Shown here: positions 1,892 to 52,877 of the stretch, one piece after another
Numbering within the stretch: the first letter of the stretch is position 1
How the letters are laid out: the number at the start of each line of letters is the position of its first letter
Virus record (IMG/VR): IMGVR_UViG_3300004369_000017
Coordinates: 1 to 57,164 of that record
DNA: 57,164 nucleotides
Origin: a virus
Direction: 5' to 3' (one strand)
Program-made: the position numbers and the translations under genes
Notes under the pieces: generated by a model
What the model saw: only the letters and a program-made list of their open reading frames with translations
What the model was told of the DNA's origin: nothing
The model's database searches: none

Positions 1892-4800
1892 TACTTACCT
1901 CTTAATCGTAGGTTCAACGTTTCTGGCGTTGGTGTTCCGATACCGCTAACGCCTAGATTCAAAATGGCAGAATCTGTGGTAGTTGCAGTACCCTCAGTTG
2001 TTAGATTCAATCCGGGATTACCGCTTCCAGCCTGAGCTTCATTCCAAGAAGATGTGGTCAAATCTAGTGTATTATACACGCTAGCGTTAGTAGGACCAAC
2101 GATTGTTAAATTCATCGACTCAGTTTCTTGTTTGCTCGACCCGATAGTGCCAATATTCATATAATCAGTTACTTTTGTGCCGTCTAATATTTCACCAGTA
2201 ACAATCTTCACAAATGGACGATGTTTAATAAACCCTCTTAGGGATGGATCATATCCAGACGCTTCTAAGAAGATATCACCATTCTGATTAGCAGACACAA
2301 TTCCGCTGACTGAGTACGTTTGAGAGCCGCCAGAAACGTTTTGGTTAACTACAATGTTCAGGTTGTTTTCACTCTTATGGCCAAATACGGCAGCGTGAAT
2401 GTAAGAACCTGAATTGGCGATAGCGGGAACCTGACTCCTTAACATAGCGTCATATGTAAACATTACACCAGAAGAGTCAAGTGCTTCAGGAGCACCAACA
2501 ATCATCGTATAATCGCCGTCACCTCTTAGCGGTCTATCAATAGATACGCTCAACCCAAAGTAGTCGTCTTCGCGGTCTACGCCTTCTTGAGCAACCATCT
2601 TCTCGGCGTATGTCCATTCTTTATAGCGTGTTTGCCAATTGACCATAAAGTGAGAGTAAGTATATACAGCCCCAGCGTTGTCCACATAAGCCCCAGAGTC
2701 ATATACATTGTGCTCTGGAATAGAGAATTCAGCATTAAACTCTTTTCGAATAAATGCGTCAGAATCATACACATCTTCATATGTAACACCTGAGCCATGA
2801 CCCGGAGCGCCAATAGCTACAAAATCATGATCAATAGACACTGAAGCTCCAAACCGATCTTCAGGACTAACTGTATCAGCTTTAAGTTTTTGTTTGAATT
2901 CCCAAGGCAGGAACTCAGAGACCACGTTCACGCCACTATTAGTGTTTTCATAATAGAATACGGCTCCACCACCACGACTTCCATACTCCACATTGCCAGA
3001 ACCTCCAGATGTCCAAGGAGTCACTCCACTGCCACCATAGCTATTAAATGGCGAACCAACCATAAGCTTATTCTCATGTAGAGACACGCTATAACCAAAC
3101 AGATCACCCGGATTCTCAGAGAGGTTGATATGATCAACACCTGAGTCTCGCATGAGCGATGGCATACCACCCATAATACCAGCGTCAATATACTGAGCAC
3201 CGCTAAACCGTGGATACATACCAAAAGCAGTTGTCACATTCTGACCAAAACTACGTATTTCAGCCTTAATTTGTTCAGGGCTGACCGGGTCTGCTGGACG
3301 TACCACATCCCCCGGATGAGTGTTATTCTCATCGTCTACATAGGAATTCAAGTTTCCAGAAACACCAGCCATACCAAAAGCACTGATGTTATTGGCGATG
3401 TTGTTTACAGCAAATGATTTAGCGGGACTTCCACGTTCAGGTGACAACAGTTTTTGAGTGAATTCAAACGATCTTCCGCCACTAGTATTGTTAGTACTAG
3501 GAGAGGGTGGGTAGAGGCTACGAATAAACCGTTGGTTTCCAGTGAGGGCGTCGTCTCTATAGCCTTCGCAGGCACCTTGCACAATAGATGAATCAGAGAT
3601 TAAAATAATACGTGACCTGTTTTGACCGTTTGAGAAGGCAGAGAAGTGTTCTAATTCTTCAGCAGCTACCACTGGACCGTCTTCAATAAGTAAGCCACCC
3701 TTGTCTTTACATAGTGTAGAAGTATTTGGGAAGTCTTGACAGTACTTAGTGTTATCTGTCATTATAGGTCTAAACTGTTCTGGAATGGTTACTATATATG
3801 ATGGGATAGGTCTCCACTCTCCAGAGCAAACTGGATTCGGACTAATATCAGGGTCAATTATTTGTTCTGAGTTAATTAAGACTCTTGGGTTGGTTGGTAA
3901 CATAGCTCCAGAAACAGACAGCACGCGAGGCGTATAAGGTTTCTCATTCGAAGAGGGGATATTTCTCCATCTATCTGATGTGAACTCAAACGACACTGTA
4001 TTTACCCCAGAAGGAACTTTTACATCTACATAAGCAGATTGGGGGAATCCAACACTTGTCCCACTGAGATTTTTGTTAACATGAGAGCTTCCAGCTTTAG
4101 GATCGGCGGATAAAGACACGTTGTTGATACGCATATCAAGAGCATATCTTTCTTCAGGAAATTCCGAAACCCAACTGTAATAAATTCTATATCCTGATCC
4201 GGGAGTAACATTAAAGATTAAATCAGACTCACCCTTGATCTGCCATGCAGTAGGAGTTTCTTGGTATGTCTCATGAACATTTTCGTTGAAGTAGATTAGT
4301 TTGGTGGCGTTATTAGCTTTGATTGGTATATACGAATCTTCTTCACCACTAATAACTAATTTCTCCAGCCTGCTAGACTTACCGTATGTATTTACACAAC
4401 CGGCGATTATTTCACTGTCTGAATCAAGAAGCTGTAGAGGTTCTTCATGCTCGTCATACGGACAGCATGTCTGTTTATTAGAATTACCAATAGTGTCTGT
4501 TGAATGGACAACATGCCTACCGCCACGGTCTATATGTGGAGTAGATGTCATTCCTAGACTTTTCATGATAAAGGCTGCTCTTTGGGCGGATTCTGGACGT
4601 TGATCATAAGTTAAGACCAGTCTCTTTCCGCCAATCGCCAGCCAGTTAGTTAATTTAGTGATATCTGATTCACTAGGAAGCTCCGCTGGATTAGCAATCC
4701 ACACTATATCCACAACATTGTTTAAATTGCCTGTGTAATTTTCTTCAATTGAAGGTGCGTTTGTACCAATTTTAGTGCTAGATAATCTGGCTATTAGTTG

Positions 4801-7800
4801 TGATTCAGAGTAAGCGTCTGCAAACGACACTCTTCTAGTCCACCCACCTAGCTGCTTAACTACAGCCGCATCGTTACAAGACTCTCTCATTAAATTTGCA
4901 TAGAAGAATATGTTCTGGTCGCTATTAAGATTTGTTCTGTCTCCATATCTACCTTCCATACTGTTTTTATTTTCAGGAAACACAGAAGCGATCATCACAA
5001 CCGACGATGTGGTATCTTTATAAGACTCTTCGGTTGCTAATACTGCGTTGTTATCAAGAACCGCTGTTTTATTAACAGGGGGGAGGGTATAAGAACTGCC
5101 AGACCCCTGAATGATACCATCTCTATCTCCCATAAACAGTGGGTTGTAATGATTCTCACTATGACCGATGTGAGCTAAGCCCACACCGCTAACACTGTTC
5201 TCAGCCTCAATTACTCCAGAAACTCCAAACTCTAAGTTATCTATAGGCGTACTTCCGAATTCCCACACGGTTTGACGTGTAGTGACAGTCTTGTACGTAG
5301 TAGTGCATCCTAAATCAACCCACCCACTGGTTGCTGGAACTGTGTAACTTGAAGGGGCTACATACTCAGCCGCAGTTAACAATGGACGAGGTTCTTGATT
5401 TGGTCGATCAATTAATTGAGAAGGAGGTGAATCGCAATCTTGTGATCGCTTTTCGTTACCAAAGTGGAACGGCCAGTTCTCTTTGTAGTGAATTTCTATT
5501 ACAGTATTACCGGCGCGTTTGGTACACATAGCATTCCACTCAGCACGCAAATCTCCACCATGCTGAATTGGCATGTTACATCTATCATTCAAGATATTGC
5601 ATGGAGCGTCAATGAGTAAGTCTGGCTTGTTGACATCCAGACCGTTCAGGTCTATTCTAATGTCGCCAACGCCGCTGGCGTAAATAGGTCCGTTATTGAC
5701 AGCGGTAGAGTGAGCATTAGCTGGAACGTAAGCATTCGTAACATTATATCTATTATTGCTTACATCTGCACAATAATTAATAGCTTCGTATTCATTTCTA
5801 GCTGGATGAATTCTCATTCTAGAATCCAGCTTTTTCAGAATCTTATGTAGAATTGCGTTTGACTTTGCGTATTTCCCACCTTCCTCGTAAGAAGGATCAT
5901 TTCCTACTAGAACGAGAGTTCTGTCACCAAGAGCCATCCAGTTTTTGATATTATCAATTACCTCATCACTAGCTGAATCCAACTCAGGAGTGATAATGAA
6001 TGCTAACCCGGCGTCCTGTGGAATTTCAATGTCGTCGAATGGAAGCCTTTCAAAAGAGCGACCACTGTTATTGAAGATAGTTTTTAAGTCTTCGTATGAT
6101 CCTGAAGCCTCTGGATGGCTATTCTTATCGAGATTTCCAAATCGGTAAAACTCGACCACTCCACTGTGAGGGAAGTAGTTACGGGACTCAAAGACTCTAA
6201 CTGCACCTGCGTTAACGTAAGAAGCCCATGTATTTTCTGATTTAAACCACACATTTGTATCATCAAATTCATTAAAAGAGTCTGTTGGAGCACCAAAGAC
6301 AACTGTATTACCATCTTCACTGACAGAGGTACTGTATCCTAATCTTGAAGTTCCAGCAAAGTGTCCCGGAATAAAGCTCCAAGTACCAGTGTAAGGAATG
6401 TCGGTATATCTATAGTCGTAAGCTGATTTGTAAGGCTGTGGAATTCCACCTCTGCTGTTCCAGAAAGTCTCATCAGAACGAAATTTGAATTTCTCAGACT
6501 GAGTAAGTCCGTAATATGTCTCTAAGCGTCCTGATTCACTTGCTAAGACGTTATCATCTATGATAATACCCTGAGAGTTAAGCCAAGCTGGAAGGCCGTT
6601 AAACAGCCTCTGACGCTCACTAGAAGAGTCTTCGTAAATCTTACATGGATGATTTGAATATGGAGAACCTACACTAATTACTTCGGCATTATCACTGATA
6701 CTAACGCTATGTCCAAATCTGTCGTTTTCCACCTGACCATAATTACCAAGCGAATAAGAGTTTCTTCCTAACTCATCTGGAGATTTTATCTCCTGAATCA
6801 GATTGAACACACCGTTCTCATTCTCGTACACATAGACACGTCCACCAGAAGGAGGTGAAATCTGGAAATCAAGTGCGTTTTCATTAGCCCACTCCTGACC
6901 AACGCCGCTGGTAATAAAACCAAGAGCACTATTCTCAATCAGGTTGCCAGTAGCAAGAGTGTCATCCATTAAATCAATAGACTCTAACATCCAGTCTTCA
7001 GCATTTCCTAACGTTCTATTGACATAACCAGAAGCTCCTACACCACTAGCAAATGTCAGTTCTTTAAAGTAAGTCTCAAATTCATCTACAACTTCTTCGG
7101 TTGCTTCAGTAAACGAAGCAAACGCACCGTTTAACGAGTTACTGGAGTCTTGGAATATCCCCAAAATAGGAGGAAGATTATTATAGAGCCTGCCAGAATC
7201 ACGTTGGAATGTAGCGTTAAATATTTCCTTAACACCGCTTACCATATCATTTTTGATAACAGCCCACTCTTCAGATCCCTTCTCTCCAACTGTACTATCA
7301 TTTAGTTTACCTACATAGGTGTGGGAAATAAAAGCAGGGAGTTTTGGAATCAGTGGCTTTTCTTCAGAAGAGTCAACGCACTGACAGACCATAACCTTAA
7401 TGTCAAGCTCTGGCTGGAATTCACCAGATGTGTTTGGATACCAAGGGGCAGAAAAGTATTTATACAATACATCCCACTTACGTACTACGTTAGAGATTCT
7501 GTAGACCTCATCTTCATCGTATTCAAAGTTGTCTACAAACAACATAATACCGACTGGGATTTTTTCAGTAATGATCTCGTCAAAAGTTCGATTCCACTGA
7601 GCACCCGGAGCACCTACTACGATAACTTCACGGTTTCCACTATTGGCAATATCTACGGCATGGCCCAACTCTCTTCCCTCTTGACCAATACTCCACTTGT
7701 TACCTGAAATCGAACCAACACCCGGATAGGTAATAATCTCTCCAGCATCAATACTGTAATCGCCACGAAAACCTGACGGTAGAATTAAATCGTCTAACGC

Positions 7801-10800
7801 AACCCAATCAGCCTTTGTACCAGCTATTTCTGGATTACGTCTATATAGATAGACTGTTCCAGCAGAAGTTAAAATTTGTCCAGATTCACCCACTATGTCT
7901 TTAAAAGGAGAACCCACAGCCATTAAGTCACCCTTAACAGCGACACTAGTGCCCATCTTCTCGTCTTGCTCTGCATTTGAGTGCTGAACTCCAGAGAACG
8001 CGAGTGTGGAATTTGTGCCATATTCCCACTCTTCAAACTCCGGTGGAGCAGGCACAGATTCCGTGTCTCCGGTATCAACAGTTAGAGTGATGTTATATGG
8101 AGCATTTGGGGTTAAGTCAGAGTACTTACGTATGTCATAGTATTCACCATTTAAAGTGTCGTAAGCACGGAATATTCCAGCGTCGTAACACTGCTCTGCA
8201 TACCAAGTTACACCGTGACTAATAACAGCTCTTTCAACAGCTTTCTGTGGAGAATTACCAGTGCAAGAACCATAGCCTACTAAATCAACACCTCGAATAT
8301 CAGCATCAGATGGAATGGTAGCGTAAACGTTATCTTCAAGATCAATATCAACTCCATAGTTATTATCGAACCATCTGACATGAGCAGCTCCACCAGTTGT
8401 TGGTCCATATGTCGCATTAAACAGGTTTATCTGACCAACCGTCTGATTGGTAGAATATGAATCTCCATAAGATGTCAGATTCATAGATTCTGTTGGATTG
8501 TTGCTAAACGTATACAAGTTCATCTTAGCATCTGGATATCTATTAACCAGAGCCGCTGAAGCTACCGTGGTCAGGTTCACAACGCCAGATAGAGTAGAGG
8601 CACGACCTTCAGTTGAGTACATATCATCTGTATTAGAGAAGATAGGTAGGTGTGCGGTTACTCCAAGATTAGTTTCAGTCGCATTAACGAATAAAGACAG
8701 AGGTGATCCACTAGGAATTTGGACCTCTTCGTTGTTTAGAAGTGAGAGAGACATGCCGAGCACGCCGTCTCCACTTGAACTAATAACGCCCTTACCAATA
8801 GTGTTTATATTTACCAAAGTAGCTAAGTTACGAATATTAGCTTCAGTGTCACCAGTAACATTCACGTTTAATGTAGAAGAAGTCGTTTCCTGTCCATGAA
8901 CATTCATACCAAGTGAAGCGGTAGACATTAAGAGACCACTGGTATAAATTGGGAAACCAGATTCTTGAATCTGAATTGGACCAACGGTGTAGAGATTGAA
9001 CACATCTCCCGACGCCAAGTGGAAATTGCTGGCAAATAAATTCATCTCCCCATTAACTGGGGATGGGTTACCACTTGAGTACATATTCAACATAGAGTAG
9101 CGTTCAGTAGACTGGACAAAAGCGTCTTTTAACCGAACATTCGAGCTGTGTATATTGATCTCTGCTTTGAACTGATCTCCAGAAGGAAATACCAGATCAT
9201 ACTGAATAAACATATCGTCTACGTCAGTAGAGAAATACGTTTCTTCAAACTCTCGAAGTCTCGGCTCCTCTGGGAATAAAGCCCACTGCTCTGTTTCATC
9301 AAGCAGACTGTCGTAGTCAAACACACTCGTAAGTTTATGAATAGCAGTATTACTGTCCAACTGATGTGCGTACCTGTTAACAAGCCCCCAATTGTTTTCA
9401 TCTGGAGTCCAATAAGGCTCTTTACGCTTGGTGTAAAGGCTAACGATAAGCTTTCCGCTGCCTTCACCGTTATGACTAATAACTGTATCTACAGCCATAG
9501 CCTCTTCTGCAAAGTTATAACCACGAGGTAAAGCCTTGGTCACACGTTGAGGAACAGCATAGAAGTTATTAGCAGTGTCGCTCAGATATAAACGCAGGAA
9601 GTCGTTTTCAATCTGTGAATGATAAGAAACTGCTGAATTTAATGTTGTTGGTAAACCTCTTTCAATGTATCCTGAATATGGAGTGCCGGAAGCTGCGAGA
9701 GTAAATCTAAGCATTTCTTTGTTAGGGCGGGATTTAAGCTGCGAGAAAGCTGGCCCGAAAGATGTGTAGCCGTAACTGCCAAGTGTCCAATCACTGTCTG
9801 TGTTTTCATCAATATAGCTCCATAGTTTAACATTGTCGTGGATATAACTAGAATTACCAATCCACCATTGAGAGCGATGATTCTCTAGGAATTTTTGAGC
9901 GGTAACTTCTCTTAAATCGATGTTCGCTCCAGACTCTACAATGTTGTTAGTTGAGACGCCTAATTCTGTAATGAAAGCATTGTAACCAACACCAGAGCCT
10001 GAACATTTGCCGATACGTAACTGGCTGACATCGCTGTTGAGAGTAAAAGCTTCAGAAGTAGCCCTGAGTGTAGCCCAAGAAGGACCATCTCCAGTTAAAG
10101 AAGCTTGAGTCTGAGTTGAAAGAGGAGACCCACCCGCAGACAGGTAATCATCTTCTTCGTTTGGGGTATCTACAAGAGGGTTTTCTGAAAAGTTTTCATT
10201 ATCCGTGTAGAGCTTCAGTTGGTGCGATCCGTGATCATTATACGTGAGTAATACAGACAGTGGGAATGTATACTGATGGTATTCTGCCGTATCGACAATC
10301 TTAACGATAGAACCAGACACATCCATAGCGGTAGCACATAATACGCCGCTCTCATAACCAAGAGTGAATTCTAAACTATTACCGCTATCCCACTTAGATA
10401 CAATTACCCCACTGTCCCACGTAGCATCAATATCTGGTGAGAATCTAGTAAACACACTAAATCCCTGCGACATATCAGTTACGGGTAAGTTGATTGGCTT
10501 ACTGTAGTTAACTCTCACAGCACTATCAAACGCGTCAGCGATCTGACCATATATAGGACTGCTTGTGTAATCGGTTACTCCACTGGTTGTTGTAGTCCAG
10601 TCAATAGACTTGTAGTTACCACTATGTCCAGCGAATATATCTGAATCTAGGAATCTCCAACCCAAGTTCTGATATCTATCGTTAGCAGTACCGTCAAAAG
10701 TGCCAGATAGACTACCTACGGCTGGATTAACTTCCCCAAAAGCATCGCAATCGAATCGGAAGTACCCAGAAAGGAATGGGTATTCCATAACAGGGTTTTC

Positions 10801-13026
10801 AAAGCCGAATGCAAAGTTGGAAGGTTGGAATGGGCCGTTTACCGTTCCTTCTACACCTCTCCATCTACGGGAATAATTTGTTTTGAGAGTTGGTGGAGTA
10901 GAAAAGCCGTGGGGAATACCTTCTATCAGCGAGATAGGCTGGAACGCAGGCCCAAGATTGAATGCGTCATCCGTAGCCTGTCTTTTAACAGGAATAAGCC
11001 TAGCCTCAGAACGAGTGTTTGCAATATGTCGAATAGCCTCTGAGCCATCAACTGAGAACATAATAGCGTTCTGTGGAGCGTGTCTGATTAACAATTCGAT
11101 ATCAGCTATCTCCGCACCACTAGGCACTGGATAGATATCCAAATTTAATCTTTCGAACATCGAACTATTATTATAGTCTCTTGACTTGCCTAACGCAACA
11201 GTGTCTTCGTATACCTTTAGGGGAATCTCATACCAAGTAAACTCTTCGCTTGTGATTACTGTAGGAGACAATAAGTAGTGATCCCCGCCTGCATTATTAG
11301 TGCCAGAAGACTCGTAATATTGATCAGCAGAAGATAGAGGCTCTCCATCAATACCAAGATCATCGCTTGGAAGAAAACCAGAAGCGACAGGAATATCTCC
11401 AGACCCCTCAATGTTTTGCAGGAACCCACCAACTTGCGAGGTAACATTTAATAGACCATCATCGCTGTAACCAACTACATCTATTGAGAAATCTCTTGAT
11501 CCAACTTCTTTCTTAGCAAGGATTCTAAGACTAACAGAGTCAATGGTAAAGAAGTTGTCTTCGACATCCATGTGGTTCTTATTTTGGGTGTCAAAGGCTC
11601 CGAATGGCTGTACCCACATGCCGTAAGTACTTGCGTCGAAAGATTTTGTACCGAAAGATCCATCAGTAATTTCCTTCATTCTATCTGTAGCAGAATGTCC
11701 AAACCTTAATACCAGTTTGCCAGAATCAGCAATGGTAGAAGATTCCATTCTAATATGATTATCATGACGACTACTTAGCAACTTAGAGAGATTGCCAGTC
11801 CAAGTAGTTGACACATTAGGCCACACTTCATTAACTGTGTCAGCGTATAGATAAGTTGGTTTAATAGTACGCTCAACGCGGTGTCCTTTGTCTCTAACGG
11901 GAGCGTAGATTGGTAGATAGTCAGAAATGCCCGGACCTACAGCCCCACTGTTGCAAATCTCAATACCAGCAATACGGATACCGCGAACACCATTAAGCAG
12001 ACCGTTGGTTTGAGAAGATAAGGAATTACCATCCAAGGCCAAATAATCGTTACCAGACCCAATTGAGTCAGGGATAATTCTATTGTCTTCAAACCCTAAA
12101 CTAAAACCGCTATCAAAAGCGTCGTCATTAGACTCCACGGTCATATTAAAGGATAGGGTATACCCGTCACCTTGATGCATTAGAGGGTAATTGGCATCCC
12201 AATCATACTCCAAAGTATTGTTAAGTACAGGAGTGGTGGAGTGAGTGCTGTAATTGACATCTCCAAAAGTTACATGTTGACTATCCCCCTTTACTGTAAT
12301 ATCCTCGTAAGCAATAACGAGGTTACCAGAGGGGTCTTCGAAGCGAATGTCGTGAATTGTGTAAGTTGGGGGAATTCTAGACTCTACATCCATAAGTGGG
12401 GTAGAGGCACGAAATCTTAAATTACTGCTCTCTGGTTTAATAGAAACGGTGCTTAACTCACACTTGTATTTAAACAGTCCTTCAGTATGATCTGTATCAG
12501 GCTGTATATAAGTGTTTTCGTCTGCAACTATTTGTCCGTTCTCACCCTGAGTAATGTAGTCTCCAGTGTGAACTCCATCATCAATGCTAGCATACAGATC
12601 ACTAGAACTATTAAGCTCGTTAACAAACCCCACTCCAGAAGTCTGAATATCAGCAACAGGATAGAGCTTTTGCAGGCACCCAACAAGAGAGAAATCCCCT
12701 GTGTACTTATCCATGTTTGCAACGATTAAATCAGCAGACACATCAATGTTTTTAGTCAAAGCATATGTAGCTGTAATGCCGTCTGTAATATCAACAGAAA
12801 CATCAATATCTACAGCGTTGTTTGCATCCACGTTAAGTGTAACATTTGTGCCTACTTCAGTAGTTATAGACGTACCAATATCACGAGTGGCAGTGATAGA
12901 TACTGTTGAGTTAGCAACAACTTCTACAGAGCCGCTGACTATAGCCGGGTCACAAGATAAAGAAACTGACATCTCAGCAGATACTTCGATGTCAGCAGCA
13001 AGGTCAACGATACAAAGATGATCCAT
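1891..13026 (-). CDS. Giant 3711-aa tail-tip/adhesin protein with FG-GAP repeats
   Basis: One uninterrupted 11.1-kb frame begins 2 nt after the tape-measure stop. Visible pieces: an N-terminal beta-rich region with repeated alternating V/S/T strands (about 1-100); a LamG/concanavalin-like stretch around residues 845-1010; seven FG-GAP-like blades with the pattern F-G-x-S-V-S ... V-G-A/S-P, four near residues 1695, 1795, 2110 and 2240 and three near 3320, 3400 and 3500; and two similar Rossmann-like segments near 2345-2385 and 2770-2825 ending in W-L/M-A-x-G-x-R-L/T-V-L, reminiscent of class I amidotransferase-like folds without an obvious catalytic site. Several short Cys-containing stretches occur between them. 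Gene order points to a central tail fiber or tip that binds the host surface. FG-GAP propellers are known from integrin alpha chains and bacterial surface proteins; their use here as a receptor-binding device is inference. Confidence 0.75.
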   Translation of the reverse strand: MDHLCIVDLAADIEVSAEMSVSLSCDPAIVSGSVEVVANSTVSITATRDIGTSITTEVGTNVTLNVDANNAVDIDVSVDITDGITATYALTKNIDVSADLIVANMDKYTGDFSLVGCLQKLYPVADIQTSGVGFVNELNSSSDLYASIDDGVHTGDYITQGENGQIVADENTYIQPDTDHTEGLFKYKCELSTVSIKPESSNLRFRASTPLMDVESRIPPTYTIHDIRFEDPSGNLVIAYEDITVKGDSQHVTFGDVNYSTHSTTPVLNNTLEYDWDANYPLMHQGDGYTLSFNMTVESNDDAFDSGFSLGFEDNRIIPDSIGSGNDYLALDGNSLSSQTNGLLNGVRGIRIAGIEICNSGAVGPGISDYLPIYAPVRDKGHRVERTIKPTYLYADTVNEVWPNVSTTWTGNLSKLLSSRHDNHIRMESSTIADSGKLVLRFGHSATDRMKEITDGSFGTKSFDASTYGMWVQPFGAFDTQNKNHMDVEDNFFTIDSVSLRILAKKEVGSRDFSIDVVGYSDDGLLNVTSQVGGFLQNIEGSGDIPVASGFLPSDDLGIDGEPLSSADQYYESSGTNNAGGDHYLLSPTVITSEEFTWYEIPLKVYEDTVALGKSRDYNNSSMFERLNLDIYPVPSGAEIADIELLIRHAPQNAIMFSVDGSEAIRHIANTRSEARLIPVKRQATDDAFNLGPAFQPISLIEGIPHGFSTPPTLKTNYSRRWRGVEGTVNGPFQPSNFAFGFENPVMEYPFLSGYFRFDCDAFGEVNPAVGSLSGTFDGTANDRYQNLGWRFLDSDIFAGHSGNYKSIDWTTTTSGVTDYTSSPIYGQIADAFDSAVRVNYSKPINLPVTDMSQGFSVFTRFSPDIDATWDSGVIVSKWDSGNSLEFTLGYESGVLCATAMDVSGSIVKIVDTAEYHQYTFPLSVLLTYNDHGSHQLKLYTDNENFSENPLVDTPNEEDDYLSAGGSPLSTQTQASLTGDGPSWATLRATSEAFTLNSDVSQLRIGKCSGSGVGYNAFITELGVSTNNIVESGANIDLREVTAQKFLENHRSQWWIGNSSYIHDNVKLWSYIDENTDSDWTLGSYGYTSFGPAFSQLKSRPNKEMLRFTLAASGTPYSGYIERGLPTTLNSAVSYHSQIENDFLRLYLSDTANNFYAVPQRVTKALPRGYNFAEEAMAVDTVISHNGEGSGKLIVSLYTKRKEPYWTPDENNWGLVNRYAHQLDSNTAIHKLTSVFDYDSLLDETEQWALFPEEPRLREFEETYFSTDVDDMFIQYDLVFPSGDQFKAEINIHSSNVRLKDAFVQSTERYSMLNMYSSGNPSPVNGEMNLFASNFHLASGDVFNLYTVGPIQIQESGFPIYTSGLLMSTASLGMNVHGQETTSSTLNVNVTGDTEANIRNLATLVNINTIGKGVISSSGDGVLGMSLSLLNNEEVQIPSGSPLSLFVNATETNLGVTAHLPIFSNTDDMYSTEGRASTLSGVVNLTTVASAALVNRYPDAKMNLYTFSNNPTESMNLTSYGDSYSTNQTVGQINLFNATYGPTTGGAAHVRWFDNNYGVDIDLEDNVYATIPSDADIRGVDLVGYGSCTGNSPQKAVERAVISHGVTWYAEQCYDAGIFRAYDTLNGEYYDIRKYSDLTPNAPYNITLTVDTGDTESVPAPPEFEEWEYGTNSTLAFSGVQHSNAEQDEKMGTSVAVKGDLMAVGSPFKDIVGESGQILTSAGTVYLYRRNPEIAGTKADWVALDDLILPSGFRGDYSIDAGEIITYPGVGSISGNKWSIGQEGRELGHAVDIANSGNREVIVVGAPGAQWNRTFDEIITEKIPVGIMLFVDNFEYDEDEVYRISNVVRKWDVLYKYFSAPWYPNTSGEFQPELDIKVMVCQCVDSSEEKPLIPKLPAFISHTYVGKLNDSTVGEKGSEEWAVIKNDMVSGVKEIFNATFQRDSGRLYNNLPPILGIFQDSSNSLNGAFASFTEATEEVVDEFETYFKELTFASGVGASGYVNRTLGNAEDWMLESIDLMDDTLATGNLIENSALGFITSGVGQEWANENALDFQISPPSGGRVYVYENENGVFNLIQEIKSPDELGRNSYSLGNYGQVENDRFGHSVSISDNAEVISVGSPYSNHPCKIYEDSSSERQRLFNGLPAWLNSQGIIIDDNVLASESGRLETYYGLTQSEKFKFRSDETFWNSRGGIPQPYKSAYDYRYTDIPYTGTWSFIPGHFAGTSRLGYSTSVSEDGNTVVFGAPTDSFNEFDDTNVWFKSENTWASYVNAGAVRVFESRNYFPHSGVVEFYRFGNLDKNSHPEASGSYEDLKTIFNNSGRSFERLPFDDIEIPQDAGLAFIITPELDSASDEVIDNIKNWMALGDRTLVLVGNDPSYEEGGKYAKSNAILHKILKKLDSRMRIHPARNEYEAINYCADVSNNRYNVTNAYVPANAHSTAVNNGPIYASGVGDIRIDLNGLDVNKPDLLIDAPCNILNDRCNMPIQHGGDLRAEWNAMCTKRAGNTVIEIHYKENWPFHFGNEKRSQDCDSPPSQLIDRPNQEPRPLLTAAEYVAPSSYTVPATSGWVDLGCTTTYKTVTTRQTVWEFGSTPIDNLEFGVSGVIEAENSVSGVGLAHIGHSENHYNPLFMGDRDGIIQGSGSSYTLPPVNKTAVLDNNAVLATEESYKDTTSSVVMIASVFPENKNSMEGRYGDRTNLNSDQNIFFYANLMRESCNDAAVVKQLGGWTRRVSFADAYSESQLIARLSSTKIGTNAPSIEENYTGNLNNVVDIVWIANPAELPSESDITKLTNWLAIGGKRLVLTYDQRPESAQRAAFIMKSLGMTSTPHIDRGGRHVVHSTDTIGNSNKQTCCPYDEHEEPLQLLDSDSEIIAGCVNTYGKSSRLEKLVISGEEDSYIPIKANNATKLIYFNENVHETYQETPTAWQIKGESDLIFNVTPGSGYRIYYSWVSEFPEERYALDMRINNVSLSADPKAGSSHVNKNLSGTSVGFPQSAYVDVKVPSGVNTVSFEFTSDRWRNIPSSNEKPYTPRVLSVSGAMLPTNPRVLINSEQIIDPDISPNPVCSGEWRPIPSYIVTIPEQFRPIMTDNTKYCQDFPNTSTLCKDKGGLLIEDGPVVAAEELEHFSAFSNGQNRSRIILISDSSIVQGACEGYRDDALTGNQRFIRSLYPPSPSTNNTSGGRSFEFTQKLLSPERGSPAKSFAVNNIANNISAFGMAGVSGNLNSYVDDENNTHPGDVVRPADPVSPEQIKAEIRSFGQNVTTAFGMYPRFSGAQYIDAGIMGGMPSLMRDSGVDHINLSENPGDLFGYSVSLHENKLMVGSPFNSYGGSGVTPWTSGGSGNVEYGSRGGGAVFYYENTNSGVNVVSEFLPWEFKQKLKADTVSPEDRFGASVSIDHDFVAIGAPGHGSGVTYEDVYDSDAFIRKEFNAEFSIPEHNVYDSGAYVDNAGAVYTYSHFMVNWQTRYKEWTYAEKMVAQEGVDREDDYFGLSVSIDRPLRGDGDYTMIVGAPEALDSSGVMFTYDAMLRSQVPAIANSGSYIHAAVFGHKSENNLNIVVNQNVSGGSQTYSVSGIVSANQNGDIFLEASGYDPSLRGFIKHRPFVKIVTGEILDGTKVTDYMNIGTIGSSKQETESMNLTIVGPTNASVYNTLDLTTSSWNEAQAGSGNPGLNLTTEGTATTTDSAILNLGVSGIGTPTPETLNLRLRGK

Positions 13027-32628: not shown

Positions 32629-33765
32629 TTATGGTGGGAAATCACTATTAGAAGACCCGGCTGGTCTACATGGGTTTGAATTATAATTACTATTTCCACT
32701 CCACGTTCCGTCACATATGTATCCATACGTATCGTTTTGATCATAGCAGCCACCATTGTTAGTTCTACCCGGACCTAAACATTTTTCACATTGTAGATTA
32801 GTATATCCTAGAGATAAACAGCGATCATACGGAGACTGTGTGGTGGTTGTAGTGGTTGGGTCTAGTGTTGTCGTTGTTGTAGAAGTAGTAGTTGTGGGTG
32901 GAACTGTACCTGTTGTGGGTGGAACTGTACCTGTTGTTGGTATAGAAGTAGTAGTCGTTGTTGTGGCCGTGGTTGGCCCGGCAGTAGTCGTTGTTGTTGG
33001 CCCGGCAGTAGTTGTAGTCGTGGTTGTTGGCCCGGCAGTAGTCGTGGTTGTGGTGGTTGGCTCGGCAGTAGTCGTTGTAGTAGATGAAGTTCCAGTTGTA
33101 GGTGGTTGCGTCGTAGTCGTAGTCGTTGTTGTTGTGGTAGTTGTAGTCGTTGTTGTGGTAGTTGTGGTTGTAGTAGTAGTATGTCCATGTAAACATTCTA
33201 TCCAATAGTTTTCCTCAAAATTACTATGTTGGCCAGTCGCCTCATTAGAAAATCCATATTCTTGTACAAAGTCAGTACACTCTATGTCAAAATTAGCGTC
33301 ATCGCAGTCGCATCCAGTCATAGAAAATAGAGCACAGCCATATAGATTTTTAAAAGTCTGCCAAGTAGCAAACCCACAATTTGGAGCTTCTCCGAAAGTG
33401 CTTACAAATAAATCTTCGCATACTTCATATGAACATGATTGCCCAACATGAAATTCGCCACCTAGCTCCTCACAGTACTCAAATATCATAAAATCGATAC
33501 AAGCTCTCTCTCCATTCCAAGATAAACAACAAGAGCCTCCCGGTTGTGAAGTAGTGGTAGTAGTTGCACATACACGCCAGTCAATAGTCTGACAAGTTTC
33601 ACCAGAATGCCAAGTCCCGCCAGAGTTTAAACAATCCTGCTGATTTAACTCAAAACAGCTCTGGCTCACACAGCAAGCCGCCGTAGGAGGTGGAGTTGTG
33701 GTAGTTGTTGTCGTTGTGGACGTGGTTGTACATACACAAGAGCAGTTGTCTGGTGGGCGACCCAT
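32629..33765 (-). CDS. Threonine-rich mucin-like, cysteine-rich virion protein (378 aa)
   Basis: Residues 1-190 contain short Thr runs separating Cys modules; two are clearly related (ACC..QSC..L..QDC...GGTWHSGETC and SCCLS...C...YCEELGGEFHVGQSC). Residues about 195-315 are almost pure Thr broken by AGP, AEP and TGTVPP linkers, and the last 60 residues form another Cys-rich unit. All four Thr codons are interleaved in the run, so the poly-Thr is maintained as protein and is not a simple slippage tract. No signal peptide is seen. It lies between a large fiber and a glycosyltransferase, with strong AGGAG upstream. I infer a rod-like, O-glycosylated appendage. GGTW-type Cys modules are, from memory, frequent in planctomycete proteins, a weak host hint. 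Confidence 0.8.
   Translation of the reverse strand: MGRPPDNCSCVCTTTSTTTTTTTTPPPTAACCVSQSCFELNQQDCLNSGGTWHSGETCQTIDWRVCATTTTTSQPGGSCCLSWNGERACIDFMIFEYCEELGGEFHVGQSCSYEVCEDLFVSTFGEAPNCGFATWQTFKNLYGCALFSMTGCDCDDANFDIECTDFVQEYGFSNEATGQHSNFEENYWIECLHGHTTTTTTTTTTTTTTTTTTTTTTTTQPPTTGTSSTTTTTAEPTTTTTTTAGPTTTTTTTAGPTTTTTAGPTTATTTTTTSIPTTGTVPPTTGTVPPTTTTSTTTTTLDPTTTTTTQSPYDRCLSLGYTNLQCEKCLGPGRTNNGGCYDQNDTYGYICDGTWSGNSNYNSNPCRPAGSSNSDFPP
32829..33181. repeat. Low-complexity Thr-codon tract (mucin-like region)
   Basis: On the minus strand this stretch is a continuous run of ACN codons with a few Ala-Gly-Pro, Ala-Glu-Pro and Thr-Gly-Thr-Val-Pro-Pro interruptions, several of them tandem copies. The complement reads as GTN and produces a spurious poly-valine frame. 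Length change by recombination is likely here. Confidence 0.88.
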
Positions 33766-48465: not shown

Positions 48466-49265
48466 TAATCTACCACCTTATATGATTTAGCTGATTCCGG
48501 TGTCAAAAACGGTTGATCTACAAACCCGTCTGTGAATTCATGAGGCTGAGACAATCTTTCTCTTTCTTTATTCATTGCAAGTCTCATTTTTTCCATATCT
48601 ACCCCATACTCTTTAATGATCTCTGGATTTTTGATCAAGTACAATATCCAGTCTTTGAAATTCTCTTTGCTGTCTTCAAGCTTTTTTACTCGCTGCTCTC
48701 TGGTTGCTCGCATTTCTTTCAACATGCCATTCTTTTTAACCTGCATGTCACGATAGTCTCTATTCATGGACTCCTGAGAGGCTCTGAGAGACGATATCTG
48801 ACGTTCAGAGTTCATGATGAGTTCTCTATCCTGTTGGCTGATGTCTTGATGTCTCTCGATCAACACGAGCCTCTCAAGTAGCTCAATCTGCTCCATACCT
48901 GAGCGATTCATCTTCAAGCAGCGATTCATAAGCAATTCAAGCTTGATCAGGTCGACCACCTGCAACTCTTCTGTTGGTGTTACATCATCCCTAAACTGAG
49001 AAACGATTCTAGACCAATGGTAGACAAACAAGTCTAACTCAGATTGTGCAAACTGCTGTGTAATTTCATACCAGTATGGACGCTCTTTAAGATCAAAAAC
49101 AGCAGATTCTTCTTCTGATACTTGAAGCCTCACCTTTCTCTTTACAAAGTTTTCTACAGAAAGTGGGTCTCTGTCAAGGTGTGTCGCAATTTCGTCTACA
49201 GTTTGGCTTGTTGCATTCTCAAGCATGTAGTCCATTTCTTCACGAGAAAATCTACCCTTCTTCAT
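48465..49265 (-). CDS. HTH coiled-coil protein, putative terminase small subunit
   Basis: The ATG at 49265 is preceded by AGGGAG with ~8-nt spacing inside the sigma gene; a longer frame starting at 49295 lacks a site. Residues 1-45 (MKKGRFSREEMDYMLENATS...IATHLDRDPLSVENFV) form a homeodomain-like helix-turn-helix, followed by a long helical region (60-240) with several coiled-coil heptads. This DNA-binding plus oligomerisation layout is typical of small terminases, and it lies a few genes before the large terminase, but four genes intervene. It could instead be a transcription factor working with the neighbouring sigma-like protein. Confidence 0.5.
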   Translation of the reverse strand: MKKGRFSREEMDYMLENATSQTVDEIATHLDRDPLSVENFVKRKVRLQVSEEESAVFDLKERPYWYEITQQFAQSELDLFVYHWSRIVSQFRDDVTPTEELQVVDLIKLELLMNRCLKMNRSGMEQIELLERLVLIERHQDISQQDRELIMNSERQISSLRASQESMNRDYRDMQVKKNGMLKEMRATREQRVKKLEDSKENFKDWILYLIKNPEIIKEYGVDMEKMRLAMNKERERLSQPHEFTDGFVDQPFLTPESAKSYKVVD

Positions 49266-49779
49266 CTTCATTCTCCCTGTCAATGCCAAACTCAACTAAA
49301 ATAGCCTTGACTTCATCCATCACTTGCTCTCTTCGCTTTTTAGGTAGATATGCATCGTTTACTACTTTTAAATAGTCCATACGTAGAGAAGCGGGTAAGT
49401 GACGGTCAACCAGACTTTTCATCGCAGCCATATCCAAAGCGTGAGAATCCACTTTAAATTTTTCACTACCGTCAAGTAGTAGGTCTTCATTATCAAGCTG
49501 TGCTGGCTGTATGATTTTACCTTTATCGGAACTTGGATCGTTATGATGGTTGTCTCTTACGAAGTTCTTTAAGCGGTTAGAGAGATGTACGGCTAAAAAG
49601 TTCTCCAACGGCTTTCCGGGGTGGTAACGAGGCAAGGCTTCCATACATATAATAAACGCTTCCTGCTGCAAGTCAGCTACTACAAAGCCGGGAAATACAT
49701 AATTATGGGCAATCCTATTCACGACCCTAGTGATTGTATCCACTACTTCATCTTTTTCCATTCCTTCTGGTACTAACAT
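49252..49779 (-). CDS. Phage sigma-70-like late transcription factor
   Basis: The 175-aa protein has a sigma region 2 core at about residues 35-76: ADLQQEAFIICMEALPRYHP followed by FLAVHLSNRLKNFVRDN, the pattern of sigma-70 region 2 (D-L-x-Q-E...A...F-x-P). C-terminal residues 105-165 form a helix-rich domain. The size and presence of little beyond region 2 recall the T4 gp55 late sigma. GGAGGAA precedes the ATG. Likely partner of host RNA polymerase at the TTGTGTATA elements upstream of late genes; that pairing is inference. Confidence 0.78.
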   Translation of the reverse strand: MLVPEGMEKDEVVDTITRVVNRIAHNYVFPGFVVADLQQEAFIICMEALPRYHPGKPLENFLAVHLSNRLKNFVRDNHHNDPSSDKGKIIQPAQLDNEDLLLDGSEKFKVDSHALDMAAMKSLVDRHLPASLRMDYLKVVNDAYLPKKRREQVMDEVKAILVEFGIDRENEDEEG

Positions 49780-49780
49780 A

Positions 49781-50551
49781 CTATTCCTCCGTTTTTATCT
49801 TTAGCCATTTATCACCAGTTCCTAATTCAAGACATTTTGAATCACTGTTATAGATAATAGTTGCCTCGGAAGGTTCCGGCCTATTGCTATTGTTGAATGG
49901 TTTAAGTTTTATTGAAGAAATTGACAGACCAGATTTGTTAACAAGCGATAGTAGCTTAGTTCTTAGCTCAATAGCACCTTCATGTTTCGAAATTGCCCCA
50001 ATGATATCTTTAGCAGTGAGTATCTCTAATAGCTCCCCACTGTCAATGGATTGTATCCTGCCGTCGAGCCTTCCAAGAAGTGTCTTTTCAGGTAACTCAA
50101 CAGGCGTGGGAGTTTGCGGGGAACTGGAACATAAGACTGAATATGCCCCCTGTAGAGCCTCATTGTAGGAAGGAGGTAAATACGTAGAGATGGTTATGTG
50201 GGTGTCAAGCTCAGAAAACGTCACCCTCCTACCCGGAATGAGAGGGGTCATCTGGTATCCATCCCAATAGGACAGGGGTGTATTGCGTACTAGGTATATA
50301 GGGGATGGTTGTTTGTTTTTAGTTCTTTGCTTTAATAGATAGCCCACTCCCCTCTCACATTGTACTAACCTATTAGCTTTATATTGCTGTATCTCGTAGA
50401 AGAAGTTCTGATCAAAGCCTACTTCTTGTTCAATCCCTGTTGTGAAATACTCCCCACGTAGATCATTGAAATTCTTGAGTAACGCAGGAGAGTCTAGCTT
50501 TAAATTAGTGGAGTCTTTTACAAGTACTCCTAAAGATAGCCCCTTAGTCAT
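49781..50551 (-). CDS. Unknown protein (256 aa) upstream of sigma factor
   Basis: Of three in-frame ATGs at the start (50575, 50560, 50551) the last fits best: AGAGG sits about 9 nt upstream and it overlaps the stop of the preceding 48-aa gene. The protein has mixed helices and beta strands (YNEALQGAYSVLCSSSP loop), ending with a C-terminal module T-I-I-Y-N-S-D-S-K-C-L-E that resembles an end segment of some fiber proteins. No family is recognised. It is the second gene of the leftward unit. Confidence 0.55.
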   Translation of the reverse strand: MTKGLSLGVLVKDSTNLKLDSPALLKNFNDLRGEYFTTGIEQEVGFDQNFFYEIQQYKANRLVQCERGVGYLLKQRTKNKQPSPIYLVRNTPLSYWDGYQMTPLIPGRRVTFSELDTHITISTYLPPSYNEALQGAYSVLCSSSPQTPTPVELPEKTLLGRLDGRIQSIDSGELLEILTAKDIIGAISKHEGAIELRTKLLSLVNKSGLSISSIKLKPFNNSNRPEPSEATIIYNSDSKCLELGTGDKWLKIKTEE

Positions 50552-50690
50552 TCTGTTCATCCTCTTCTGAATCAAGCAAATCAGCGAGAGACTTGTCAGG
50601 GGCGGTTAGCTCTTGTTCGATCTCACACTCAAGGGACGCGGTTGCTTTGCAGCACAACTCAGAACTACAGGTTTGCGGTGTTTTCTTCAT
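50544..50690 (-). CDS. Small Cys-containing leader gene (48 aa)
   Basis: A 48-aa frame begins at an ATG at 50690 with AGGAG upstream and ends inside the next gene's start (overlap). It has a Cys pair (SSELCCKATASLECE) and an acidic C-terminal tail (DSEEDEQND). It is the first gene of the leftward transcription unit; function unknown. Confidence 0.6.
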   Translation of the reverse strand: MKKTPQTCSSELCCKATASLECEIEQELTAPDKSLADLLDSEEDEQND

Positions 50691-50747
50691 TTTAGCTCCT
50701 CTTTTTAAACTATTTTGAGAATCTTACAACATTTCATACACTTTTTG

Positions 50748-50776
50748 TTGACAGATGACGAAACTTAGACTATAAC
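50748..50776 (+). promoter_or_regulatory. Strong sigma-70 promoter of the rightward unit
   Basis: TTGACA at 50748-50753, 17-nt spacer, TATAAC at 50771-50776. Transcription should start near 50782 into a structured RNA. It lies back to back with the leader of the leftward genes, so this is the divergence point. A loosely related minus-strand motif (AGTGTATGAAA, about 50731-50741) overlaps it. Confidence 0.88.
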
Positions 50777-50780
50777 TAGT

Positions 50781-51040
50781 GGCGAGTATTCAGAACTTCG
50801 CCGTTTCTGAAAATATGTCTAGTTAAGCAATCTGGTGTCTGAGACGTACCAGCGAGGGGCTTCCCTCTGAGTCAGGAACGAGCAGGGGATGGTTAGGGGT
50901 GGAGAGCTAGTGATCACAAACTAGTAAACCTGTGGCAGTGCAAGTAGGGAGTGAACCTTCTCCCCACACCGTAGAAGGCACTGGTGGGTTGCCCGCTAAT
51001 GAGTATCTTGATTACCAGAGGCTCACGCTTCTATGGTGGT
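50781..51040 (+). ncRNA. Candidate structured noncoding RNA / 5' leader
   Basis: About 260 nt directly downstream of a near-consensus promoter contain no convincing protein gene but many stems: 50781-50785/50798-50802; 50832-50836/50848-50852; 50854-50858/50863-50867 (tight GCTT loop); 50907-50911/50920-50924; 50931-50934/50965-50968 with inner 50947-50951/50960-50964; and 50969-50977/51028-51036 (9 bp, one G-U) enclosing 50981-50985/51014-51018 and 50986-50988/50992-50994. The density of helices in one strand is far above what surrounds it. It could be an independent RNA or the 5' leader of the small genes that follow. It does not fit RNase P, tmRNA, 6S or group I intron core motifs that I can recall. 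Structure predicted by eye. Confidence 0.6.
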
Positions 51041-51054
51041 AAAAGGGACGTGGT

Positions 51055-51264
51055 ATGCACAATGATAATGAAGAAATAGACGGTCTTATGTCGCAAGTCA
51101 GGTTGTTAACTGACTGGAAGGGTTTCTACGATATTAAAAATCCCATAACTCTAAGGTATGTTTTTAATGTTCACACAGGAAGAGGTCTATCTAATAACGA
51201 CTGGCTGTTCTACACTCTTCCACTCTATGCAAGGAGCGCGCCATGTCGCCGTAAAATACAGTAA
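51055..51264 (+). CDS. Small early protein (69 aa)
   Basis: The ATG at 51055 follows the structured RNA, with AGGGA about 9 nt upstream. The stop overlaps the next ATG (TAATG), so translation is coupled. The protein begins acidic (MHNDNEEIDGLMSQ) and ends with a basic Cys-Arg-Arg tail. No family is recognised; small size makes the call moderate. Confidence 0.45.
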   Translation: MHNDNEEIDGLMSQVRLLTDWKGFYDIKNPITLRYVFNVHTGRGLSNNDWLFYTLPLYARSAPCRRKIQ

Positions 51265-52758: not shown

Positions 52759-52877
52759 GGCAATGGGCGAGGATTAGAAAATACATTTCCGAGGGGCCGA
52801 GTGAAGATGTATGGACCACCCCGCGTTTTTGGACAGATTCAGACACATTCCGATCTGAAGATAAAACCCCACCCTAG
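52755..52877 (+). CDS. Tiny protein (40 aa)
   Basis: ATGA overlap with the preceding gene, 40 codons: MRQWARIRKYISEGP, then an acidic, Trp/Thr-rich end. Too short for a family call; overlap and clean frame support it. Confidence 0.4.
   Translation: MRQWARIRKYISEGPSEDVWTTPRFWTDSDTFRSEDKTPP

Follow-up and report, generated by a model that had tools for sequence, protein, structure and literature searches.

A multiply pseudoknotted RNA at the early/late divergence point in a clade of uncultured phages

The large RNAs known from phages are mostly tRNAs, introns, and a few ornate RNAs from metagenomics. The put RNAs of phage HK022 are ~70 nt long, consist of two stem-loops, and occur in two copies per genome (PMC9378689). 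GOLLD, ROOL, and OLE are elaborate phage or bacterial RNAs of unknown function that contain loop–loop contacts and are known mainly by covariation; in OLE and GOLLD, covariation of adjacent bases has been interpreted as a symmetric contact between molecules (PMC12286853). Here we describe a new family of multiply pseudoknotted RNAs of 260–340 nt that is delineated by comparative sequence analysis and occurs once per genome in a large clade of uncultured phages. The window from which the analysis started is a 57-kb phage record from IMG/VR, analyzed over its full 57,164 nt.

Genomic site and homologs

The window contains late genes on the − strand up to position 50690 and early genes on the + strand from 51055 on, where the labels early and late rest on gene content and promoter type and not on expression data. 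The RNA occupies approximately 50781–51054 of the + strand, from its 5′ hairpin P0 to a 3′ tail ending in GUGGU. This extent is based on 41 distinct homologs, on conservation that breaks off sharply where the next ORF starts, and on covariation, and it is slightly greater than that in the initial annotation, which had the RNA end at 51040 after ~260 nt. The same annotation placed a near-consensus promoter at the divergence point. A predicted sigma-70-type promoter (50748–50776, +) is indeed recognizable by sequence, with TTGACA (50748–50753) and TATAAC (50771–50776) separated by a 17-nt spacer that is kept in the close homolog L003; the promoter-like sequence stops 4 nt ahead of P0. Most homologs have a −10-like hexamer just upstream of the RNA, with a more variable −35 element.

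The late operon is divergent from the RNA. Its first gene (50544–50690, −), the direct neighbor of the RNA, encodes a small protein of 48 amino acids with a C..CCKATA motif, and its third gene (49252–49779, −) encodes a sigma-70 region 2 protein, with a match to Pfam PF04542 that exceeds the cut-off (E 1.4e-06). Between the RNA and the operon lies a candidate late-promoter-like box, GTGTATGAAATG (50730–50741, −), that faces the operon. Nearly all listed homologs have a box of this kind before the late operon on the strand opposite the RNA, reading GTGTATAATA, GTGTATTATATA, or GTGTATTATATAGTG, and the sigma-like protein that the phage encodes is a candidate to recognize this box, which is common to the clade. 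On the other side, the first early ORF after the RNA (51055–51264, +; 69 amino acids) matched nothing in Pfam or PHROGs and shows no homology to its positional counterpart in L003. ARAGORN found no tRNA or tmRNA in the window. Elsewhere in the late region, an ORF of 378 amino acids with long threonine runs (TTTTTT...; 32629–33765, −) lies beside a glycosyltransferase-like ORF.

Homologs were gathered via the neighboring late proteins and then via DNA patterns drawn from the RNA only. A 264-amino acid gene used alone as the first protein query did not recover relatives. The terminase query led to 17 related contigs, two of which (L002 and L003) carry the region at ~81% identity. Similarity between the window and L003 starts at the promoter and stops sharply at the next start codon; the ORFs that begin there encode unrelated proteins. 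Single-base indels between these two sequences break every reading frame, in agreement with the earlier statement that the region has no convincing coding frame; a conserved protein frame, which had been named as evidence against a structured RNA, is not found across the region. L007 contains a far more diverged copy of the RNA, in which the helices are maintained by compensatory changes. An alignment of the sigma-70 region 2 protein led to 80 loci, and a short pattern from the 3′ part of the RNA alone led to 42 more matches in viral contigs and one in a Thalassolituus metagenome-assembled genome. The RNA is present in all 43 matches, and its 5′ part differs in four of them. In L119, L123, and L126, the 3′ part is that of type A and the 5′ part is not, as though 5′ domains had been swapped. 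Relatives of the window type amount to 64 hits in all, or 41 distinct sequences, with only two distinct sequences in the window's own subgroup; a strongly diverged sister type, E, contributes 35 distinct sequences.

In all 64 hits the RNA runs divergently from the small late gene, the sigma-like gene, or both, usually with 110–190 bp between the 5′ end of the RNA and the small late gene, and every homolog found by RNA pattern alone occupies the same site. A second RNA-only pattern, for type E, returned 33 true loci, of which 30 have the same arrangement and two have too little flanking sequence. The one true exception, L150, has a different gene context, with its own promoter-like sequence before the RNA and a further promoter-like sequence ~80 nt downstream of it. 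The other six of the 39 matches to this pattern lie within a protein-coding gene (candidate portal-like) of unrelated phages and were discarded. By comparison of these loci, the RNA is located just behind a sigma-70-like promoter sequence and back to back with a late operon carrying a sigma-like protein. It is single-copy in each of five records tested, among them records of 162 kb and 97 kb; two further matches in the copy-number search (E ~0.6) are noise.

The initial annotation could match the RNA to no large RNA class, and Rfam 15 concurs: at the gathering cut-off, no family matched the window, L007, L091, L053, L035, or nine type E loci, and permissive thresholds gave chance matches only. 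A DNA search of cultured phages with the RNAs of the window and L096 returned nothing relevant, and the late sigma-like protein had no match in cultured phages. We found no description of the RNA in open-licence papers, and a report that we have not seen is possible.

Covariation and fold

Folding energy and covariation give different pictures of this RNA. The initial annotation held that a folding energy like that of shuffled sequence would speak against structure, and the minimum free energy of the window RNA is ordinary relative to dinucleotide shuffles (z −0.72; 42 of 200 shuffles are equally good); however, this test is blind to pseudoknots and is uninformative here. Covariation, the absence of which would likewise have counted against the proposal, was found in the homologs and bears out a large structured RNA, with 12 helices backed by compensatory changes, six of them long-range or pseudoknotted. 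In the 31 sequences and 68 pairs of group A, 97.9% of 2108 cells are paired, compared with 34–43% of cells in slid controls, and 28 of the 68 pairs change on both sides, compared with 2–7 pairs in slid controls and 16 in shuffled ones. Counted over 28 pairs on a tree inferred from the unpaired columns, pair-state changes sum to ~100, which is an upper guide given that neighboring pairs within a helix are non-independent. An unbiased mutual-information scan of 31 well-aligned sequences has nine helices represented among its top 60, many of the base pairs being 100% Watson–Crick or G–U, and it revealed three contacts missed by eye, namely P1, LR, and PK5. P1b, P6, and P7 are near-invariant within group A and draw their support mainly from comparison between groups. 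The alignments present a well-supported RNA family whose conservation is too strong for accident.

Comparison of the homologs establishes a fold with a pseudoknotted 5′ domain, in which P1a and P1b lie inside P1, and next to it a core of interlocked P3 and P7; the 3′ tail enters the loops of the P2 and P6 hairpins and pairs across P7. All helices described here are on the + strand, and the counts of paired cells and arm combinations cover 38 sequences, the arms of the seven outside group A having been placed by hand. The 5′-terminal hairpin P0 (50781–50802; GGCGAG/CUUCGCC) is based on complementarity and reads GGCGAG/CUUGCC in L003. P1 (50805–50877), the outer helix, pairs UUCUGA (50805–50810) with UCAGGA (50872–50877), or UUCUGG with CCAGAA in L003, and is paired in 183 of 198 cells with 14 arm combinations. 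It encloses the 5′ pseudoknot (50815–50852), in which P1a, AUGUCU (50815–50820) with AGACGU (50842–50847), crosses P1b, CUGGU (50832–50836) with ACCAG (50848–50852); P1a is paired in 228/228 and P1b in 152/152 cells, with four arm combinations each. The hairpin P1c (50854–50867; GAGGG/CCCUC) is placed by complementarity, covaries in group A (reference positions 93–98), and varies in length across the family. A second pairing of the 5′ end in the window, UUCAGAA/UUCUGAA, was dropped, as P1 takes the same 3′ strand and covaries across groups.

Downstream of this domain, the P2 hairpin (50907–50924; CUAGU/ACUAG) is paired in 219 of 222 cells with 12 arm combinations. Its loop UCAC (50914–50917) pairs with GUGG of the 3′ tail (51050–51053) to form PK6, for which all 152 cells are paired in four combinations (ACCC/GGGU, ACCA/UGGU, AGCC/GGCU, and UCAC/GUGG). 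The P3 pseudoknot (50936–50983) joins CAGUG (50936–50940) to CACUG (50979–50983), with 229/229 cells and 10 arm combinations. Within it lies the P6 hairpin (50947–50964; GGGAG/CUCCC; 190/190 cells), and the P6 loop CCUU (50956–50959) forms PK5 with AAGG of the tail (51043–51046; 188/188 cells, nine arm combinations). In the window subgroup, PK5 and PK6 comprise 4 bp each. P7 (50968–51037) pairs ACCGUAGAAG (50968–50977) with CUUCUAUGGU (51028–51037) in 292 of 304 cells and six arm combinations, and is crossed by PK4 (51012–51042), which joins UUACC (51012–51016) to GGUAA (51038–51042) in 182 of 189 cells and 15 arm combinations. P7 is probably the 9-bp helix enclosing a nested hairpin that the initial annotation described, but its interior is interlocked with P3 and PK4 and not simply nested; among the stems then read by eye, P0, P1, P2, and P6 are real as well.

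Two helices of the wider family set the window subgroup apart. P4, a GUAA-capped hairpin paired in 160/160 cells across the family, is absent from the window subgroup. LR, a long-range helix between the 5′ end and the 3′ half (276/285 cells, 22 arm combinations), is strong in other groups and was sought in the window subgroup but not found. The RNA also contains conserved unpaired nucleotides. The extra conserved bases of the tail show no consistent covariation with the 5′ end. The two neighboring tail bases that follow GGU-N read CG, UA, or UG in each of the 66 type A and E sequences, and CA in none; this pattern gives only a hint of a symmetric contact between copies of the RNA.

A weak covariance-model match at L027 (E 0.054) led to type E, which occupies the same site and had been missed by the first profile. 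Type E has covariation of its own in a 5′ hairpin whose loop pairs far downstream, in a pseudoknot resembling P1a/P1b, in P2, in the P6 hairpin, and in a long-range helix. The same covariation also gives a P3 pseudoknot, GUUAGG/CCUAAC, and P7, CCUGUGAAG/CUUCACAGG. The order of P1a/P1b, P2, P3, P6, and P7 is that of type A and is followed by a similar GGU-NYRN tail. Based on topology and place, and not on formal alignment, we read types A–D and E as one superfamily.

Downstream genes and possible roles

The genes that directly follow the RNA are mutually unrelated and include those for DUF1289 proteins, HNH endonucleases, a cytidylyltransferase, a sugar-nucleotide dehydrogenase, an FkbM methyltransferase, and unknowns. 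Judged by sequence, the early gene that most often comes first after a type A RNA appears to be that for a DUF1289 protein (Pfam PF06945, confirmed for L007), as in L007, L024, L044, and many others. The HNH endonucleases, which belong to different families, lie directly behind the RNA in L072, L091, L137, and others, as if homing endonucleases preferred to insert at the conserved RNA gene. Type A RNAs are often followed by a start codon after just 18–35 nt, and type E RNAs often by no convincing ORF for hundreds of bases, a gap that can be 300–600 nt. In the window, a putative Shine–Dalgarno sequence, AAGGGA (51043–51048), lies within the tail and overlaps an arm of PK5; the position of the Shine–Dalgarno sequence relative to the tail is not conserved across the family. 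The window early region has no terminator-like site on the + strand, and one in all, on the other strand, compared with 6.3 expected. L136 has two weak terminators downstream of the RNA, in a search that covered intrinsic terminators. The downstream genes themselves are equipped with strong promoter-like sequences: the L136 early region (4577–12503, +) has nine perfect 12/12 sigma-70 promoters and several 11/12 matches, far above the shuffled expectation. The window has a weaker version of this promoter richness at 54.5–56.7 kb. A second conserved noncoding element, GG.UU.G..AAUACAU ... (GA)ACCACCCC ... GAAGAUAAAACCCC(C)AC, is found at 52763–52875 (+) of the window. L023, L035, L080, L027, and L055 have this element downstream of their type E RNA, and L015, L043, and L045 have it close to the small late gene; its L035 region had no Rfam match.

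The unrelated next genes, the stretches with no convincing ORF after type E RNAs, the promoter-like sequences of the downstream genes, and the lack of + strand terminator-like sites in the window early region together favor an autonomous RNA, as do the constant site of loci found by RNA pattern alone, the occurrence of the L150 RNA behind its own promoter-like sequence, and the single copy per record. We posit, with a probability of roughly one-half, that the family comprises autonomous, early-expressed phage noncoding RNAs that probably act in trans, a mechanism we infer from sequence. Host RNA polymerase would make the RNA early in infection; the RNA would fold co-transcriptionally, its own tail locking the fold, and would act alone or with protein or other RNA copies on the expression machinery of host or phage. 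As no terminator follows the RNA, a free RNA would need processing. A fuller version is slightly more tentative: a new, clade-wide class of autonomous knotted RNA, expressed early, whose two sequence types have the fold but not much sequence in common, and which acts in trans on gene expression of the host or the phage and perhaps self-associates via its tail. The initial annotation had offered a regulator, a ribozyme, or a leader-type switch, three different things among which the data choose none. A switch specific for the next gene becomes less likely given that different phages have unrelated first downstream genes, sometimes hundreds of bases away.

The short distance to the next start codon in type A and the Shine–Dalgarno sequence in the window tail leave room for a leader role, and we consider the cis-acting leader roles, taken together, less likely than the autonomous RNA. 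Slightly ahead among them is a cis-acting leader by which the early transcript would modify host RNA polymerase for processive antitermination, resembling HK022 putRNA with a different and larger fold. The RNA opens the early region, right after a promoter-like sequence and before unrelated genes, and HK022 put acts in cis without a protein from an equivalent position (PMC9378689). This reading is weakened by the lack of + strand terminator-like sites in the window early region and by the many consensus promoters of the L136 downstream genes; fold and size are unlike those of put, and the L150 RNA, in its other context, has a second promoter-like site shortly downstream. We therefore regard antitermination as rather improbable. 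Ranked next is an element of the 5′-UTR whose knotted 5′ end blocks nucleases and so stabilizes the early mRNA, or whose tail pairing hides the ribosome-binding site and so controls translation. The 5′-terminal hairpin, the missing terminator, the nearby start codon of many type A members, and the overlap of AAGGGA with the PK5 arm are consistent with such an element; the distance to the next ORF in type E (up to 300–600 nt), the nonconserved spacing of Shine–Dalgarno sequence and tail, and a structure far more elaborate than stability requires speak against it, and we doubt it slightly more.

A ribozyme, possibly a group I-like derivative, is decidedly improbable. The order 5′P3, P6, 5′P7, 3′P3, 3′P7 is like that of a group I core, with P3 and P7 paired in nearly all cells, and the GUAA-capped hairpin and the HNH-type proteins directly downstream in several lineages are also suggestive. 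However, no Rfam model matched, Intron_gpI included; the window has one short hairpin, P6, between P3 and P7 and hence no P4–P6 domain; and no interrupted gene or exon was seen. Except in L150, every locus with flanking sequence has a promoter-like sequence and a divergent gene start next to the RNA. We know of no pairing of a tail into the P2 and P6 loops in group I introns. A metabolite-sensing riboswitch of the early operon, to which the leader position, the knotted fold, and the conserved unpaired nucleotides would be suited, is the least credible reading, as the downstream genes are unrelated and have no common function, and no terminator or other expression platform was found.

The RNA lies at the control point of the phage genome and is retained in very divergent relatives. 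With six long-range or pseudoknotted pairings in ~270 nt, it is well suited to structure determination and is a good candidate for a new way in which phages steer their hosts; its alignments and base-pair lists allow the fold to be tested directly.

Relation to described RNAs

Like HK022 putL and putR, the RNA is structured and lies directly behind a phage early promoter, here a promoter-like sequence, and before varying genes. In contrast to put, it is 260–340 nt long, has 12 supported helices, and is multiply pseudoknotted and single-copy. Terminators that would have to be overridden were not found on the + strand of the window early region, and L136 has two weak ones. With GOLLD, ROOL, and OLE it shares an elaborate structure known mainly from covariation, with loop contacts, although no Rfam match to the models of these RNAs was obtained; GOLLD is often >800 nt and located near tRNAs, unlike the shorter RNA described here and its tRNA-free window. 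None of the known systems fits as a family: the nearest by position, though not by fold, is HK022 put; the nearest by the order of P3 and P7 is the group I core; and the nearest in kind are GOLLD, ROOL, and OLE.
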